Shown here in pieces: positions 4,996 through 48,266 of a DNA stretch of 64,000 nt. The notes beneath the pieces are model-generated. The model had not been told where the DNA came from. It ran no database searches and was given only the letters and a program-made list of their open reading frames with translations. The position numbers were made by a program, and so were the translations under genes. This DNA comes from Bacilli bacterium (GTDB taxonomy: Bacteria > Bacillota_I > Bacilli_A > ML615J-28 > CAG-698). The stretch's first letter is position 1, and each line of letters begins with the position of its first letter. The DNA lies in contig JAFZWP010000001.1 of NCBI GenBank assembly GCA_017617065.1, forward strand, positions 62,001 through 126,000, in the 5' to 3' direction.

Positions 4996-5649
4996 TTATT
5001 CTAAATTCATATATGCAATAAACATAGAAGATGAACAGTTTGAAGAACTTGAACTTGAAGAAGAGCTAGAAGAAGATGAACTTGAGCTAGAAGATGAACT
5101 AGATGAAGATGAACAGCTATATGCATAATTTAAACTCACAGAGCGTTTATTAGCTGCACCCGAAGCATAGCAAGCTGCCAAACTATCAATATACTGTGTA
5201 ATATCTGTAGCTGTTGCAACATTTGTATCAAAATTCATACTAGTTGGTGGTGTAATTGTTCCTTGATTATACCATACAATATTCCAAGCTCCAGTATCTT
5301 CATTATGAAGTATAAGAACTCGCATTGCTAAATATTTATAAGCACAAGACATGAAATTAATAATGCCACGATATGATACAATTTGACTAGCTTTTGCATT
5401 AATACCACAACTTGTCATATAATCATTAAAATCAGTTTCTACAGTAGATTGTGCTACAGCATTACCCCAAGTATCACTAGTTGAAATAACACATTTAGCA
5501 TAAGGTGTACCGGATTCTTTACCAACAGTTCTAGACCAACCAGATTTTAATGACGCATCTAAATTGGTATTATTACCAATATTTCTACATCTTTCTGTCA
5601 TAAAACTCATAACTATTGATTTTAAATCACCATATGTAAGAGTTGCCAT
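4996..5649 (-). CDS. Hypothetical protein with C-terminal polyserine tract flanked by cysteines
   Basis: 217 residues. The first 180 share a layout with the next gene (CRNIGNN versus CCNIGGF; GINAKAS versus GIDARSD), so the two are paralogues. The C-terminus is a Cys, then 24 consecutive serines by my codon count, then Asn-Cys-Ser-Ser-Ser and a short tail. The serine codons are mixed (TCA, TCT, AGT, AGC), which argues for selection on the protein rather than repeat slippage. It sits directly before a radical-SAM gene and in the same operon as a glycosyltransferase. It could be a virion protein or a substrate of the modification enzymes; neither is proven. Confidence 0.75.
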   Translation of the reverse strand: MATLTYGDLKSIVMSFMTERCRNIGNNTNLDASLKSGWSRTVGKESGTPYAKCVISTSDTWGNAVAQSTVETDFNDYMTSCGINAKASQIVSYRGIINFMSCAYKYLAMRVLILHNEDTGAWNIVWYNQGTITPPTSMNFDTNVATATDITQYIDSLAACYASGAANKRSVSLNYAYSCSSSSSSSSSSSSSSSSSSSSSSSSNCSSSMFIAYMNLE

Positions 5650-26930: not shown

Positions 26931-29132
26931 TTAAGCCATACTTTGTAAAGCCAAATTTCTAATATCGATAATAGATAATGTATCTAAATCTTTACCTGAA
27001 TTTTTTAACTCTGTCATAAATCTAAACATAGTATTCATTAATTCAGTTTGTTCAGAATTAACATTTTTAGCAGCAAAGTATTTATCTGTACTACCTTTCA
27101 TTATATATTCTTTCATTCTACGCATATCTTTCCAGAATTTATAGAAAGGAGTTTTATATTTAATCATAAAATTATTCTGATCTACAAATACAAATCCTTC
27201 TATTTCTTCATGAAAATCTTTATCAAATGCTTCAACAAAAGATTTCAATTCATCAAAGGTATTAAACACTTTACACATTTCTTTTGGTTTACATCCAATT
27301 TCTTTAGCCAATTGCCATACTTCATCATATGATTTGAATATATCATTAAAGTCATTTTGTACTATATCTAATAATACAACTTTTTCTTTTGTATATTCAA
27401 TAATATGCGGATCATTAATTGGATCTACACATTCAAATACAGCAGAACAATTATTAGTTTTTAAGTATTCTTTTAATTTATCACAATCTACAGTCTTTTT
27501 TAATATACGCTCAAAGTTTTCTTTATATTCACCTTGATTAGTAGATTTAGATGCAATAAATAATTTATCATTCCATACAGATACAATACCCAAAAAGCCA
27601 TTTTCTTTTAAATATGCTGTTACTGGAAAAACTAATTTATTTTGTAAATTTCTCCATTGAGTAGAAGGATGTTGTTCTGCCTCAAAGAATTTTGGATAAC
27701 TACGTGCTACTACATTATTTGTTTTACTATCAACAAATAAACCCCTAGCAGTAGTAGTTAATTTATTCCATTTTTGACTATAAAAAGCTTCTCTACTAAA
27801 ATTATAAGATACTATCCCATCTTCTAATTCTTTTTTATGAATTAAAGTACTATGATCTAATTCACTTACAATAGATTTATTATGAGTATTTTCATGTAAA
27901 TCTCTCGCATTAAAGATTGTATTTTTAATTTCAATAGGTTTAATGTGCATTTCCGTATCATAAGATAATTCTACAATACGTAAATTACCACCATATTCTA
28001 TATCATTTTCTAAGTTAATATTACAACCATCTATAGAAATAGTTGGATTACCTTTTACATTACGATGACCATGCACATTATAATAATGATGACCTATGCT
28101 TTGAACAGCCCAAGCTTCATTCATTTTAGCAAAAGCTGCTTCAACTTGATCTAAATCTTCATAATTGCCTACACCTTTAATACATTGCATAGCAGGTGTT
28201 TTATAAGACAAATGACTGCTTAAACCACCATGTGTTATATTAAAGAAATAATGATCAAAATCTTTACCAAATATAACTTTAACCGCTACTTTTAATTTTC
28301 TAGTAAATTTACTCAATTGATCTTTTAATTCACCAAATTGTATTAAAGAATCACGAAAAGCTTCTGTCATTTTAGCATTATTACCATCTCTGACAAAATT
28401 CTTAGCCCATATTTCATGATTACCTTGTAAAAATATAAAGTTTTCTTTTTCACAATTATCTAAACAAAATTGCAATACTTCTTTACCTTGTATTCCACGA
28501 TCAAAGTAATCACCAACAAAGATATATAAGTTTTTATCAGAGATAGGATTAGCATCAAAGTATTCTTTTACAGGTTGATAACAATTATGTATATCACCAA
28601 ATACAATTACTTTATCCCATTCGTTACCATTTATTTTATATATAAAATCATCCAAATTTGGTAATTTATCATAATCGTATATTTCATACTTTCCCTGTAA
28701 AGGTACTTTGATTTGATTATACATACGGTCTAATACTTCTTCTGGTACTCTTTTATAAGATTCACGTCTTAAGTTTCTTTCTTTACATATATCTAAATCT
28801 ATAGAAGAAAAATCAACAATAACCATACGATAGTTATATTCTTTACATAACTTTTTATAATCTTTTAAATAAGATTCTTTAGTATGCGTAGCATCTACAA
28901 TAGTAAAATCACCATTCTTCATACGATCTTCTATTCTTTCTCTAAAGAAAGCCCAGACTTGTTTATCGTATCTGGAAGAAATAGCATATTTACCATTAAT
29001 ATTTTGTTCTGGCGCAGCAAACATCAAACGAATATTATCTGTACTTAAAGCATATTGTTCTAAATCTTGGTCTTTTAACCAAGTAGATTTACCACAACCA
29101 GGAATACCACGCAATACTAATAATATTTTCAT
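26931..29132 (-). CDS. Trifunctional RNA-repair enzyme: polynucleotide kinase, metallophosphatase, RNA ligase
   Basis: 733 residues, three enzymes in one chain. Residues 1-165: P-loop kinase (GIPGCGKST, 9-17) of the 5'-OH polynucleotide kinase type. Residues about 172-400: calcineurin-like phosphatase (GDIHN 179-183, GDYFDRG 207-213, GNHE 237-240). Residues about 440-733: T4 Rnl1-like RNA ligase (TARGLFVD, nucleotidyl Lys509 in LKENG, EGFVF near 645, IKYK near 657). The order matches bacterial Pnkp, but the ligase part looks like phage Rnl1. It would heal and seal RNA broken by host anticodon nucleases. The promoter is at 29156-29186. Confidence 0.9.
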   Translation of the reverse strand: MKILLVLRGIPGCGKSTWLKDQDLEQYALSTDNIRLMFAAPEQNINGKYAISSRYDKQVWAFFRERIEDRMKNGDFTIVDATHTKESYLKDYKKLCKEYNYRMVIVDFSSIDLDICKERNLRRESYKRVPEEVLDRMYNQIKVPLQGKYEIYDYDKLPNLDDFIYKINGNEWDKVIVFGDIHNCYQPVKEYFDANPISDKNLYIFVGDYFDRGIQGKEVLQFCLDNCEKENFIFLQGNHEIWAKNFVRDGNNAKMTEAFRDSLIQFGELKDQLSKFTRKLKVAVKVIFGKDFDHYFFNITHGGLSSHLSYKTPAMQCIKGVGNYEDLDQVEAAFAKMNEAWAVQSIGHHYYNVHGHRNVKGNPTISIDGCNINLENDIEYGGNLRIVELSYDTEMHIKPIEIKNTIFNARDLHENTHNKSIVSELDHSTLIHKKELEDGIVSYNFSREAFYSQKWNKLTTTARGLFVDSKTNNVVARSYPKFFEAEQHPSTQWRNLQNKLVFPVTAYLKENGFLGIVSVWNDKLFIASKSTNQGEYKENFERILKKTVDCDKLKEYLKTNNCSAVFECVDPINDPHIIEYTKEKVVLLDIVQNDFNDIFKSYDEVWQLAKEIGCKPKEMCKVFNTFDELKSFVEAFDKDFHEEIEGFVFVDQNNFMIKYKTPFYKFWKDMRRMKEYIMKGSTDKYFAAKNVNSEQTELMNTMFRFMTELKNSGKDLDTLSIIDIRNLALQSMA

Positions 29133-44302: not shown

Positions 44303-45871
44303 ATGTCTATATTAAAACAAATCGAAACAAAAAACACTTTAACAGAAGCTAAACGCGCTGTTAAAATGAACAAAGGTATCGCACACGCTGCTCAAGTATT
44401 AGCAGAATCTAACTTAGGTGCTCGCTGCCCAAACTTAGTTAAAGGCTTGGAATCAGAATCTAAAGAAGCTAAATACGCAGCTGCTACTTTGGTTCAATTA
44501 TTAGAAAATACAGCTGAATACGTTGCCAAAACAGATGGCCGTGATATCTTACACGAAGATGCAGTCAATGCTACAGCTAACACTATGTTAACTCCAGGTG
44601 TCTCAACTTTGACTCCTCAAGTCGTTGATATCGTAAATGTGTTCTATCCACAGATGGTAGCTAACTATATTGCTGACATTCAAGCATTGGATCGTCAATC
44701 TGGCCAAATCTTCACTATCAAAACACGTTATAGTGAAACAGCAGCTGGTGTAGAAGCAAACGACATCGTATTCGAAAAAGCTACTGATGGTACATATTCT
44801 TCAGAAGGTGTTATTTCTTATGAAGCAGCATCTATCGAAGAAAGTGGTTCATCTGCAACTGAAGCTACAATCACATTGTCTCCAGTATCTATCTTGACAT
44901 CAGCAGAAGCATCAGTTATCGTACGTGCAGGTTCATTTATTGTATCTGTTGGCGGTAAAGAAGTTGCTCGTGACTATGGTTTAGATACAAAATTGGATGG
45001 CGTTGGTGGTACATATGTAGTTATCGGTAAAGGTATTTCTGGTACTGTAGATGCACAAACAGGTGTTGCTGAATTGACAATTGATTTAGCAATGTTTGAA
45101 AACGGCACAACATTCAGTGCAGTTGCTTCTTATGATACAGAAATCGATGAAGATTTGATCCACAAGATTCAATTCGATATTCCAAATCAACCAATCTTAG
45201 CTAAAGAACACCCATTAATGTCATCTTACTCAGTTGCAGCTGGCTTAGTCATGAATGCACACTTAGCAGTTGACACAGATGAATTGATCACTAACCAATT
45301 AGCTGGTACAATTCGTTGGGAACGTGACTTGGCATTAGTTAAAGCAGTATCTGATGCAGCTAAATTACAATCTGCATTGACATTCGACTGCTCAGCTAAC
45401 GGTACTAACTTGACATTAGCACAACGCTATAGCTCATATACAACTACAATTTCTTCAGCTCGTGGCTTGATCCAAGAAATTGCTGGTCGTGGTACTGTAG
45501 ATTTCATCATCTGCTCAGCTTCTCAAGGCTTAGTTGTTATTGAACAAATCGAAGGCTTTAAAGCTGCTCCAGAAGCAAAGAAACCAATTGGTCCATATTT
45601 AGCAGGTACATTACGTGATGGCACAATCAATGTTATTGCTGTTCCTTACACAAAAACATTAGCTGCTGATCAAGTAGTATTTGGTTTCAAGGGCTTCCAA
45701 TTAGGTGATTCTTCAGTTATCTTGGCTGAATGGGTTCCTTTATACTTAACACCAACATTCCAAGCTCCAAACTTAAGAAACCACAAAGGTGCATTAAGTT
45801 TCTATGATTTGTTCATCAACAAACCAGAATACTTGGCAAAGGGTGTTATTTCTAACTTCAACGTTGCTTAA
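44303..45871 (+). CDS. Major capsid protein, T4 gp23-like
   Basis: 522 residues. The segment TPQVVDIVNVFYPQMVANYI, then IQALDRQSGQIFTIKTRYSE, matches the entry to the HK97-fold core of gp23-type capsid proteins. The first about 70 residues are a charged helical part likely cleaved during maturation. Residues about 175-285 are an inserted beta-rich, Ig-like domain. Codon use is GC-richer at third positions (GCT, GGT, AAC, ATC) than neighbours, as for a very highly expressed gene. The terminator is at 45903-45936. Confidence 0.9.
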   Translation: MSILKQIETKNTLTEAKRAVKMNKGIAHAAQVLAESNLGARCPNLVKGLESESKEAKYAAATLVQLLENTAEYVAKTDGRDILHEDAVNATANTMLTPGVSTLTPQVVDIVNVFYPQMVANYIADIQALDRQSGQIFTIKTRYSETAAGVEANDIVFEKATDGTYSSEGVISYEAASIEESGSSATEATITLSPVSILTSAEASVIVRAGSFIVSVGGKEVARDYGLDTKLDGVGGTYVVIGKGISGTVDAQTGVAELTIDLAMFENGTTFSAVASYDTEIDEDLIHKIQFDIPNQPILAKEHPLMSSYSVAAGLVMNAHLAVDTDELITNQLAGTIRWERDLALVKAVSDAAKLQSALTFDCSANGTNLTLAQRYSSYTTTISSARGLIQEIAGRGTVDFIICSASQGLVVIEQIEGFKAAPEAKKPIGPYLAGTLRDGTINVIAVPYTKTLAADQVVFGFKGFQLGDSSVILAEWVPLYLTPTFQAPNLRNHKGALSFYDLFINKPEYLAKGVISNFNVA

Positions 45872-45902: not shown

Positions 45903-45936
45903 AATCCCCTGTCCTTAGTGATAGGGGATTTTTATT
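45903..45936 (+). terminator. Terminator of the capsid gene
   Basis: Stem AATCCCCT/AGGGGATT with a 12-nt loop and TTTTATTT. Confidence 0.9.
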
Positions 45937-45962: not shown

Positions 45963-46667
45963 ATGAGTAAATTTAGAGATCTTGTTGAATCTATTATAGT
46001 AGGTGAAGAAGCACCATTTTGGACATTTGGTGAAGATACATTAGAAGAAGGCTTAGTACCATCCAATGCTCCTATAGGTAAACTAGTCAATAAATTAGAT
46101 AGCTTTATTAAAGATGATAAACCTACGCTAGAAGTTAAATTATATAGTACCGGTAGAGATATTAAGAAAAAAGATGAAATAGTCTCATATTATCTTACTA
46201 TTAAAGAAACTAAGACATATAAATTCCATGGTTGTAAAATAGAAGTACCTGTTACTATAAGATGCCGCTGCTCAACACACGATAAGCCAGAACAAGAAAT
46301 TAATCCACCTAAAGATATTAATGTATATATACCTAACCCTTCCTTCCCTAAAACATTTAATAATCGTGGCGGTATTATGTGTTATGACTTAAGCGAACCA
46401 AATTTAGATAGTTATATTGCAAACGGTTATGATGATATATTACTAGCATTAAAAGATAAAAGAAACTATATAGAAATGCCATTAAATGCTATTAAAGGCG
46501 ATGTTTTTAAAGATATTATCACTTTACCAGCGCAAGAAGTAGTATTTAAATATAAATTCTTAAATCGTGATACTTTATATTTCTCTAAATGGTTTCAAGA
46601 TTGGTTAAAGCAAGTACGAGCTTTATATAGCAATACCTTTCAACAAACTAATACATTTTCCAGATAA
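45963..46667 (+). CDS. Hypothetical protein downstream of the capsid gene
   Basis: 234 residues. No ribosome site precedes the ATG; only the promoter motif does. It contains a CRCSTHDKPEQE segment and a Pro-rich loop (YIPNPSFPKTF). The location after the capsid gene suggests a structural or assembly role, but there is no match to a known head protein. Confidence 0.65.
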   Translation: MSKFRDLVESIIVGEEAPFWTFGEDTLEEGLVPSNAPIGKLVNKLDSFIKDDKPTLEVKLYSTGRDIKKKDEIVSYYLTIKETKTYKFHGCKIEVPVTIRCRCSTHDKPEQEINPPKDINVYIPNPSFPKTFNNRGGIMCYDLSEPNLDSYIANGYDDILLALKDKRNYIEMPLNAIKGDVFKDIITLPAQEVVFKYKFLNRDTLYFSKWFQDWLKQVRALYSNTFQQTNTFSR

Positions 46668-46695
46668 ATAAAAAAACGTGCTGCTGAAGCACGTT
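46668..46695 (-). terminator. Terminator of the 370-nt RNA
   Basis: Stem AACGTGCT/AGCACGTT (46675-46695), 5-nt loop, then TTTTTTTATTT on the minus strand. Confidence 0.9.
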
Positions 46696-47037
46696 ATAGT
46701 TAACCCCAGAAAACCTTTATTTCAAGGCCCTTTTACATCCGCTAGGTTGTATGGAAGGCGGTTCATACTCCGATTCTGATATATTACTTAGGGAAAAACC
46801 TCATTAACCAGATACAATTGTTAATGAGGCCCTTTTACTTTCCATTTCGTATAGTCAGCACACTATACCGCGATTCTGATATATCGCAAGCAATATATCT
46901 TTATCAGCTCTCTCTACCCGGCTGATCTCAGACAAAACCCTATTTCTAGGTAAAAAGTTCAGGTTTCCCTTACTTGTGTCACCAAATGCAACCAGGCGTA
47001 GTTCCTGGACTTTTACGCACCAGCGCTGTCTTTTTGT
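46668..47037 (-). ncRNA. Candidate large structured RNA, about 370 nt
   Basis: Promoter at 47044-47072 (TTTACA, 17 bp, TATAAT) and a perfect intrinsic terminator at 46668-46695. No convincing ORF on either strand. Many helices: AGACA/TGTCT closing the 5' domain; CCTCATTAAC/GTTAATGAGG; GTATAG/CTATAC; GATATAT/ATATATC; ATCAGC/GCTGAT; two GNRA-type hairpins (AGG-GAAA-CCT and CCTA-GAAA-TAGG). A module with ATATATCAGAATCG, a GTATnG hairpin and GTAAAAGGGCCT occurs twice in tandem. No known class recognised. Confidence 0.72.
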
Positions 47038-47043
47038 AACTCT

Positions 47044-47072
47044 ATTATAATAGAACTCTATATAAATGTAAA
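47044..47072 (-). promoter_or_regulatory. Host-like promoter of the 370-nt RNA
   Basis: Minus strand: TTTACA (47072-47067), 17-bp spacer containing GTTCTAT, TATAAT (47049-47044). It combines both promoter motifs of the window. Confidence 0.85.
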
Positions 47073-47082
47073 ACCAATTATA

Positions 47083-47106
47083 AACTATTTAAATTATATA
47101 GTTTAT
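47083..47106. repeat. AT-rich inverted repeat between the two large RNAs
   Basis: AAACTAT/ATAGTTT with a 9-nt AT loop, like the hairpins at 40511, 42516 and 43201-43246. It may mark the 3' end of the upstream RNA. Confidence 0.45.
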
Positions 47107-47666
47107 CATATAGGGGCAGGCTTGATCCCAAACTTCGCGGTGCCTTCCCGGAATGAAATATTTTATATTCTTCTTTTTCGTATTATATTTCCATTTCTGT
47201 CAATATTTTATACTACTTTAGCTTCGTATACCATATTCCACATAGATTACTCTTCACTATGATCAGCCAGAAAACGCTTACTGGGTTAATTCTTATTATA
47301 GATATGTATAAATAAGAATAAAAACTTCTATATATAAATTGTCATATCCTTTATATATAGTTTGAATGATTATACTTCATTCCGCCGGATATTGGTTTCT
47401 ACACAAGTCTGCCAGGAAAGTGTCGATCTCACATTGCCGGTCATTTCATAGAACTATTCGGCGAGGGAGAATGGATACGAAAAAATTGTATTTGGAAGAA
47501 TAAAATAACCGGAATAGCGTGAAAGGAAGGAAAGGAGAGAGAAAGAACGCTATTCCGGGTTCAACAAAAGGATATAGGCACACGAATGTAGGAGGGAGAA
47601 AACCTATATCCCGGAGAAAAAGTAGACTGAACAACACGAATACGCAAACACTTTTTGTTTGTCTAC
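47105..47666 (-). ncRNA. Candidate very large structured RNA, about 560 nt
   Basis: Promoter at 47673-47701 (TTTACA, 17 bp, TATAAT). Helices visible on the minus strand: CCGGAATAGCG/CGCTATTCCGG (11 bp); GGATATAGG/CCTATATCC (9); CTATATATAAA/TTTATATATAG (11); ATTCTTATT/AATAAGAAT (9); GTAGAC/GTCTAC; and a long-range CGGAATGAA/TTCATTCCG joining 47376-47384 to 47149-47157. The first two hairpins have pyrimidine-rich loops. Size, phage setting and ornate folding recall ROOL and GOLLD RNAs; I cannot confirm membership. Confidence 0.65.
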
Positions 47667-47672
47667 GTTGCT

Positions 47673-47701
47673 ATTATAGATATATTATTTGCAAATGTAA
47701 A
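47673..47701 (-). promoter_or_regulatory. Host-like promoter of the 560-nt RNA
   Basis: Minus strand: TTTACA (47701-47696), 17-bp spacer, TATAAT (47678-47673). Confidence 0.85.
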
Positions 47702-47709
47702 GCAAATAA

Positions 47710-47856
47710 TTAGCTGATTTGGACAATTTGTCCGTAACCAGCAATAGATGATTCCTTTAATTGATGATATGCACGATTAGCTTCATCCCAGCTGAAATAT
47801 CTTCCCGGCATTTCTTCACCATTAAAGATAATCTTATACATAGTACAATTAGCCAT
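47710..47856 (-). CDS. 48-residue hypothetical protein
   Basis: ATG 47856 has AAAGGAG 8 bp before it. The protein has a strand pair (YKIIFNGEEMPGRYF) and a helix (SWDEANRAYHQL), ending YGQIVQIS, a compact beta-beta-alpha-beta pattern seen in other tiny proteins here. It ends next to the promoter of the 560-nt RNA. Confidence 0.65.
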   Translation of the reverse strand: MANCTMYKIIFNGEEMPGRYFSWDEANRAYHQLKESSIAGYGQIVQIS

Positions 47857-47867
47857 AATATACTCCT

Positions 47868-48266
47868 TTAGTTTAATTCTATTGTTATCTTACTATCTTT
47901 ATCAAATAAGTCTTCTAATTCTTCATTATTACTTATTTTAGCCAGCGCATTAAATATACCCGTTACACCTTCTTCAGTATCTATCTTCATCTCTTTAGGT
48001 AAATATAAAACAGTTGTACCGCGTGTTCCTAATACACCATCCCATTCTGCTATTAGACCATATTCATCTCGTAAAAACCATTCACTATCACTTCCCATAG
48101 GACTATCAAAAGATACTACTGTATAACGCTCATGCATATAATCATCTGTTACATGCCAAAGCTTTCTATCTATACAGTCTCTAGCTTCTAATGGGCTTAG
48201 CTTATGATTATCTATGAGCTCTTCTAATATAGGCCGTAATATCTTTTCTATATCCTGCTGCTTCAT
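47868..48266 (-). CDS. Hypothetical protein
   Basis: 132 residues from ATG 48266 (AAGGAG upstream; the longer frame has no support). Acidic, with ARDCIDRKLW and an E-rich C-terminus. Function unknown. Confidence 0.65.
   Translation of the reverse strand: MKQQDIEKILRPILEELIDNHKLSPLEARDCIDRKLWHVTDDYMHERYTVVSFDSPMGSDSEWFLRDEYGLIAEWDGVLGTRGTTVLYLPKEMKIDTEEGVTGIFNALAKISNNEELEDLFDKDSKITIELN

Follow-up and report, generated by a model that had tools for sequence, protein, structure and literature searches.

A putative large structured RNA beside a phage capsid gene, with loops complementary to Shine-Dalgarno sites

The 64-kb window, by which we mean the whole stretch of DNA analysed here, is a piece of contig C6 in a 1.73-Mb bin and carries genes of a large rumen phage. 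Among them is a capsid gene at 44303-45871 of the forward strand, matching PHROG 138 'major head protein' (4e-25) and Pfam Gp23 (6e-21), with a terminator-like site of its own at 45903-45930. Between 46668 and 47709 we found no convincing gene; this stretch is flanked by a small forward-strand gene that follows the capsid gene and by reverse-strand genes from 47710 on. Located here, on the strand opposite the T4-Gp23-like capsid gene and convergent with it, is the sequence of a predicted RNA of ~590 nt, which starts ~40 nt past a 48-aa ORF (47856-47710), and next to it that of a 370-nt RNA. ARAGORN detected no tRNA gene in the 64-kb window, and no Rfam family was matched there. Elsewhere in the window we noticed an aspartate/ornithine carbamoyltransferase gene with both Pfam halves in this phage-like contig (12753-13661, forward strand), a fused polynucleotide kinase, phosphatase and T4-type RNA ligase, probably an RNA-repair enzyme (26931-29132, reverse strand), and a long serine run close to the end of an ORF (4996-5649, reverse strand).

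A preliminary description of the locus had reported a perfect promoter. This holds for the -10 element and the spacing but not for the -35 element, which is why the word has to be limited to the former (Table 1). The same promoter form is present in the related loci L009, L050 and L021. Its strict form occurs seven times in the window, always on the reverse strand, indicating that it is the phage's ordinary promoter. Both promoters of the noncoding stretch and its intrinsic terminator face the reverse strand, and a reading of the forward strand as a Shine-Dalgarno decoy was thereby ruled out. Compared with 100 dinucleotide shuffles, the window variant (W) gave folding energy z-scores of -3.29 on the reverse and -3.15 on the forward strand; the reverse strand was more clearly favoured in L021 (-5.22 vs -2.37) and L050 (-3.01 vs -1.93). 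The RNA had been placed at 47105-47701 with a length of 560 nt; that stretch is real, but conservation goes beyond 47105 to ~47077; the 3' end is expected there, at the junction of an A+T-rich hairpin with the second promoter. It had also been described as lacking any ORF. ORFs of 45-64 amino acids do exist, depending on the frame, but none is conserved in relatives, which rules out a coding reading. What had been noticed, an ORF-poor and highly structured stretch behind a reverse-strand promoter, is thus real and measures ~590 nt.

Related loci were sought via the capsid protein, yielding 15 loci on viral contigs, one more by profile (L047) and two (L050, L051) on contigs of genomes. Model R1, which covers the hp_a/hp_b part, detected the RNA in five of the 19 sources searched: the window, L009, L010, L021 and L050. 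Since L010 gives the same matches as L021, the two are counted as one variant, leaving four. Identity to W is 92% over the region in L009, 79% over the 3' part in L021 and L010, and 79% over 317 nt in L050, a 6-kb contig in a Lachnospiraceae MAG. In every relative the RNA lies within the noncoding sequence that follows a T4-Gp23-like capsid gene, and promoter and 3' core are kept in all four variants. When 16 whole genomes or records were searched with R1, 5 gave strong matches; four weak matches (E 0.35-0.99) were discarded. Exact-pattern scans of viral contigs with core pieces of 20, 34 and 17 bases returned the same three contigs, and a DNA search of 50,697 phage records gave 5 matches, none of them credible (best E 0.02). 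None of 42 other genomes of the order held a relative (0/42). Apart from its own genome, 24 of 59 relatives gave short, weak matches, which we rejected as A+T-rich chance. L052, found by loop pattern, was also rejected; it is a G+C-rich phage in which the complement resembles a gene's own ribosome binding site.

Table 1. Positions of the predicted RNAs, their promoters and their structural elements (all on the reverse strand)
Feature	Position	Strand	Remarks
Promoter TTTACA-17-TATAAT	47701..47673	-	11/12 consensus matches, -35 element 5/6; predicted start ~47666
~590-nt RNA	47077..47666	-	5' domain 47666-47460, 3' core 47442-47077
H1, 5' hairpin GUAGAC/GUCUAC	47622..47666	-	absent as such in L050
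H2 hairpin	47570..47611	-	9-bp stem, loop with CUCCCUCC
H3 hairpin	47509..47558	-	12-15 bp stem (12 in W); in W a 26-nt all-pyrimidine loop (47546-47521) with CUCCUUUC
Single-stranded motif AUUCUCCCUC	47463..47472	-	also in L009, L050, L021
Long-range helix Pa	5' arm 47404..47413, 3' arm 47115..47124	-	span ~300 nt
Long-range helix Pb	5' arm 47383-47372, 3' arm 47161-47150	-	12 bp, span 234 nt
hp_a	47328..47360	-	11-bp hairpin, invariant; loop with GGAUAUG
hp_b	47289..47319	-	8-bp hairpin, invariant; loop with CAUAUCU
hp_c	47284-47267	-	4 columns: 1 compensatory, 3 invariant
hp_d	47261-47241	-	5 columns, all invariant
hp_e	47206-47185	-	5 columns: 1 compensatory, 3 invariant, 1 broken
A+T-rich 3' hairpin	47080..47106	-	9 bp in W and L009; either the 3' end or a weak terminator
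370-nt RNA	46675..47072	-	own promoter 47072-47044 (same grade), intrinsic terminator 46695-46675
Relatives of the ~590-nt RNA	L009 11317-10725; L050 2812-2205; L021 11012-10405	-	model and sequence matches

For pair counts the helices of W, L009, L050 and L021 were aligned by hand. The several 9-11 bp helices noted previously are recovered as H2, H3, hp_a and hp_b, and the 9-bp helix said to span about 230 nt is Pb, in fact longer. Conserved pairing in relatives, which the preliminary description had put forward as a check, is found: the long-range helices persist with paired changes. Pa reads GGCAG(A)CUUG/CAAG(C)CUGCC in W and GGGG-CUUG/CAAG-CCCC in L050 and L021, the mismatched A.C being gone from both sides. 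Its ten columns comprise two compensatory, one single, six invariant, one gapped and two with a non-pair, some possibly counted twice; the non-pairs are the A.C mismatch in W and L009 and a broken outer pair in L050. In Pb, GGAAUGAAGUAU paired with AUAUUUCAUUCC becomes GGAAAGAAGUAU paired with AUAUUUCUUUCC (1 of 12 columns compensatory, 11 invariant, none broken). The 5' arm of Pb can partly pair locally with 47369-47364, and this local pairing has changed in step (UCAUUC/UCUUUC), making a two-state switch possible. Summed over Pa, Pb, hp_c and hp_e, 5 of 31 columns are compensatory, and all 24 columns of hp_a, hp_b and hp_d are invariant; four variants offer few independent changes for covariation. 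The loops of hp_a and hp_b are complementary over six Watson-Crick pairs and one G-U pair (shuffle p 0.033 for Watson-Crick pairs, 0.055 with G-U), suggesting a possible kissing pair. The core largely agrees between single-sequence folds of W, L021 and L050, and the A+T-rich 3' hairpin has a single mismatch in L050 and likewise in L021. When the 5' part of W is folded alone, the minimum free energy structure favours pairing other than H1. With the promoter retained and the long-range helices kept up by paired changes, we regard it as very probable, judging from sequence comparison, that the stretch specifies a real structured RNA.

The H3 loop is composed entirely of C and U in W, L009 and L050, and its CUCCUUUC is the complement of the Shine-Dalgarno sequence GAAAGGAG. 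We take CUCCUUUC to be part of the 16S rRNA tail, complementing the phage's usual ribosome binding site; AAAGGAG, AAGGAG or AAGGAGG precedes 34 of 75 reverse-strand ORFs in the window. The tail of the host 16S rRNA was not found in the bin; the tail's core is given as CCUCC in PMC6288834. Between W and L050 the 21-nt pyrimidine loop of H3, with TTCTCTCTCCTTTCCTTCCTT, is identical, and the stem is rewritten in 10 of 12 comparable columns, all still paired. Over W, L009 and L050 the 15 columns of H3 include 10 compensatory, 2 invariant, 3 gapped and no broken ones; L021 was excluded from this count, having no alignment there. Preservation of a loop across rewritten stems suggests a target in trans. 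CTCCTT of the loop has an unpaired probability of 0.95 in W and 0.997 in L050, and a stem of H3 quality around a loop of 15-40 nt arose in 2 of 40 shuffles of W and in 0 of 40 for each of L009, L050 and L021. H2 in L009 has a changed loop that yet retains CUCCUCCCUCC, and in L050 it is a different 10-bp stem. In all four variants AUUCUCCCUC comes after H3, with an unpaired probability of 0.54-0.85. The complementary motif lies in unpaired hairpin loops on freely changing stems in W, L009 and L050 but not in the ~590-nt RNA of L021, where a 21-bp hairpin with another loop occupies the corresponding place, CUCCUUUC is absent and CCUUUC sits in a stem (unpaired 0.10); this counts against a riboregulator model. 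Pairing of the loop is stronger at gene starts than in gene interiors (-9.4 vs -5.3 kcal/mol, n=75), a trivial result of its Shine-Dalgarno complementarity. At up to 3 mismatches the loop's extended complement occurs in the bin at its own locus only, so that no single dedicated target emerged.

The 370-nt RNA, likely a genuine separate RNA, has a relative in L009 only (90% mean column identity between W and L009). Two such RNAs in tandem, as previously described, hold for W and L009 but not for L021 and L050, in which different small units replace the 370-nt RNA. At 46668-47045 (reverse strand) the 370-nt RNA shows two hairpins whose stems differ between W and L009, with pairing in each by eye, and it contains two copies of a unit with TATATCAGAATCG. 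By eye, L021 carries about four further small promoter-terminator units in tandem after its ~590-nt RNA relative (10408-9543, reverse strand); a separate RNA there has a 15-bp stem with a long C/U-rich loop (9756-9737). A second small RNA of L050 (1870-1600, reverse strand) places CTCCTTTC and CTCCTCC between the apparent arms of a long hairpin.

The motif recurs in the regions downstream of the capsid gene. On the reverse strand, CTCCTTTC is present in 7 copies in 6 of 15 such regions, with none on the forward strand and a mean of 0.1 (maximum 2) in 300 shuffles; elsewhere there are 6 copies in the same orientation in 224.6 kb (Fisher p 4e-7, optimistic, as are all p-values for this motif, because it was chosen after the sequences had been viewed). 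Independent cases number fewer than seven, because two of the seven copies (that of W and one of two in L050) lie in homologous ~590-nt RNAs. L009, too close to W, and L010, equal to L021, were excluded from the counts, and L047 and L051, with a gene directly downstream of the capsid gene, have no region to count. In the opposite orientation, that of the genes' own sites, 34 copies lie outside the regions. None of the seven forward-strand complements is an evident ribosome binding site: four have no reachable start and three lead ORFs of 2-7 amino acids. Promoter letters aside, no k-mers of their GC class are shared by more regions than CTCCTTTC and TTCTCCCTC (6 to 8 of 15). Among k-mers containing three or more G or C, the most widely shared is GCTTTAC of the promoter (12/15), followed by TCCTTTC (8), CTCCTTT and CCTTTCA (7) and TTCTCCC/CTCCCTC (6). 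In relatives that lack the ~590-nt RNA the stretch after the capsid gene is mostly still noncoding, and many have reverse-strand promoters and terminator-like hairpins. The predicted unpaired probability of the motif is high in H3 of W, L009 and L050 and in L019 (0.76), but mostly low in the remaining loci (0.11 in L015, 0.31 in L016, 0.29 in L020), which is the main weakness of any wider claim.

Two further observations concern these regions. Of the 14 occurrences of TTCTCCCTC in 15 sources, 13 are on the reverse strand, several right past a stop codon or a terminator-like hairpin (W 47463 and 47592; L011 7170, 8906 and 11301; L012 5336; L013 15491; L016 2294; others); the sequence is possibly a processing or regulatory signal. 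A small-RNA segment that closely copies the 16S tail, TGCACCTCCTT, is common to the reverse strands of L017 (~2681-2640) and L019 (~3378-3335); after it comes a hairpin, GATGTRT...GCATC, which varies between the two and by eye still pairs in each.

The preliminary description had likened the RNA to ROOL and GOLLD, a kinship that the analysis does not bear out. A cmscan of 46500-48000 against 4227 Rfam families at E<=10 gave five chance-level matches and neither ROOL nor GOLLD. The ROOL model (RF03087) matched none of 13 sequences, the host bin and 12 phage records, a set in which no control genome matched either, leaving sensitivity there unproven; among the matches to the Rfam set as a whole, at the gathering score and at E<=10, none was to GOLLD. 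The setting differs as well: according to a Nature 2025 paper, ROOL and GOLLD are often near tRNA islands. The same paper describes GOLLD as conserved in its 3' region and less so in its 5' region, and this we do find in the ~590-nt RNA, which also resembles both families, as far as that source portrays them, in being phage-encoded, in its size class of roughly 500-800 nt and in its elaborate fold. In contrast to them it matches no model, has no tRNAs nearby and carries Shine-Dalgarno-complementary loops, and sequence and setting make its membership in either family unlikely. The RNA very probably represents a new family outside Rfam and in kind would be an anti-Shine-Dalgarno hairpin regulator joined to a large ornate core. 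We know of no function for ROOL, GOLLD and similar large phage RNAs.

Smaller RNAs offer closer parallels to the 5' domain. Alphaproteobacterial alpha-r14/cuckoo RNAs are much shorter than the ~590-nt RNA. According to a study in mBio (2023, PMC10746234), these RNAs (NfeR1 and kin) consist of hairpins with an ultraconserved, unpaired anti-Shine-Dalgarno motif and very different stems, and the seeds of NfeR1/alpha-r14 mask ribosome binding sites, silencing mRNAs. On that account the ~590-nt RNA shares the row of hairpins, the unpaired motif and the diverging stems. Their hallmark, an identical CCUCCUCCC in three hairpins, is not found in it; they are chromosomal with CCUCCUCCC, whereas this RNA is phage-borne with CUCCUUUC/CUCCCUCC, has a 3' core of ~365 nt and lacks any Rfam match. 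RNAIII of Staphylococcus aureus also encodes a peptide. In RNAIII and RsaA an unpaired C-rich UCCC recognises ribosome binding sites, in RNAIII in several hairpin loops, as stated in PLoS Pathog 2014 (PMC3961350); the ~590-nt RNA has an unpaired C-rich sequence suited to the same sites, but gave no cmscan match at E<=10, is not chromosomal and has no conserved peptide. The c4 RNA of P1/P7 has one specific antisense target, unlike the generic Shine-Dalgarno complement and far larger size seen here. A review describes loops of c4 as believed to pair around a ribosome binding site. Neither the ~590-nt RNA nor a phage anti-Shine-Dalgarno RNA family was found in the portion of the open-licence full-text literature covered.

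Building on the promoter sequence, the paired changes, the loop identity across rewritten stems and the recurrence of the motif, all observed directly, we propose that the RNA is a phage riboregulator of two domains which covers ribosome binding sites, a reading to which we give even chances. Transcription from a sigma-70-type promoter of its own, opposite in strand to the major capsid gene, would yield an RNA of ~590 nt. Its 5' domain would present a row of long hairpins exposing pyrimidine loops (CUCCCUCC; CUCUCUCCUUUCCUUCCUUUC) and the single-stranded AUUCUCCCUC, complementary to Shine-Dalgarno-type sites such as GAAAGGAG and GAGGGAG. The compact 3' domain, predicted to be closed by Pa and Pb around five hairpins, two of them with complementary loops, probably protects and positions the RNA. 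By pairing with mRNAs of the host and/or the phage at their ribosome binding sites, the loops would block 30S entry and switch genes off by translational repression, and the loop-mRNA duplex may be exposed to RNase III.

Several features could also be read in other ways. The size (~590 nt against 574 ROOL model positions), the phage setting, the conserved 3' and variable 5' halves, as described for GOLLD, and the invariant hp_a and hp_b with their complementary loops would suit a scaffold or nanocage RNA like GOLLD or ROOL, in which the 3' core folds and perhaps multimerises by loop-loop contacts with the 5' part as cargo or linker. We think this unlikely, given the lack of a model match and of nearby tRNAs and a p of just 0.03-0.05 for the kissing pair, on whose pairing covariation cannot speak, the loops being invariant. 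The pure C+U loop of H3, predicted to be unpaired, might instead be a decoy for a pyrimidine-binding factor (Rho, a ribosomal protein) and not a base-pairing regulator; RNAs at the locus with no other relationship repeat the 8-mer CUCCUUUC exactly, a precision that such a decoy would not need, which makes it quite improbable.

Position, too, admits another reading. The RNA is convergent with the Gp23-like gene, follows the 48-aa ORF closely and keeps its place in relatives, as would a cis element, either a long 3' UTR or an antisense RNA acting on the capsid operon. Against this, it has its own promoter, the capsid gene's terminator-like site is >1 kb away and the loop is kept across rewritten stems; we hold a cis role to be very unlikely. 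Inverted repeats of a DNA element (an origin, packaging or recombination site) might mimic RNA helices, and both strands of W do fold better than shuffles; the preference for the reverse strand in L021 and L050, the retained promoter and the G-U pairs in use in Pa of L021 and H3 of L050 argue otherwise, and we consider such an element highly improbable.

The proposed riboregulator may belong to something wider, which we put forward tentatively, as a possibility more doubtful than the regulator itself: rumen phages with T4-type capsids would keep a fast-evolving RNA locus beside the capsid gene; the RNAs made there, though otherwise unrelated, would have copies of the 16S tail (CUCCUUUC) in common and act as ribosome-tail mimics competing for mRNAs. 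The ~590-nt RNA would be the most elaborate of these, its loops coupled to an ornate core, serving as a global translation switch in infection. It represents a large phage RNA outside ROOL and GOLLD whose anatomy suggests a job, the masking of ribosome binding sites. If this is true, phages steer translation by copying into RNA the tail that the ribosome itself uses for recognition, and large ornate RNAs can carry antisense loops.
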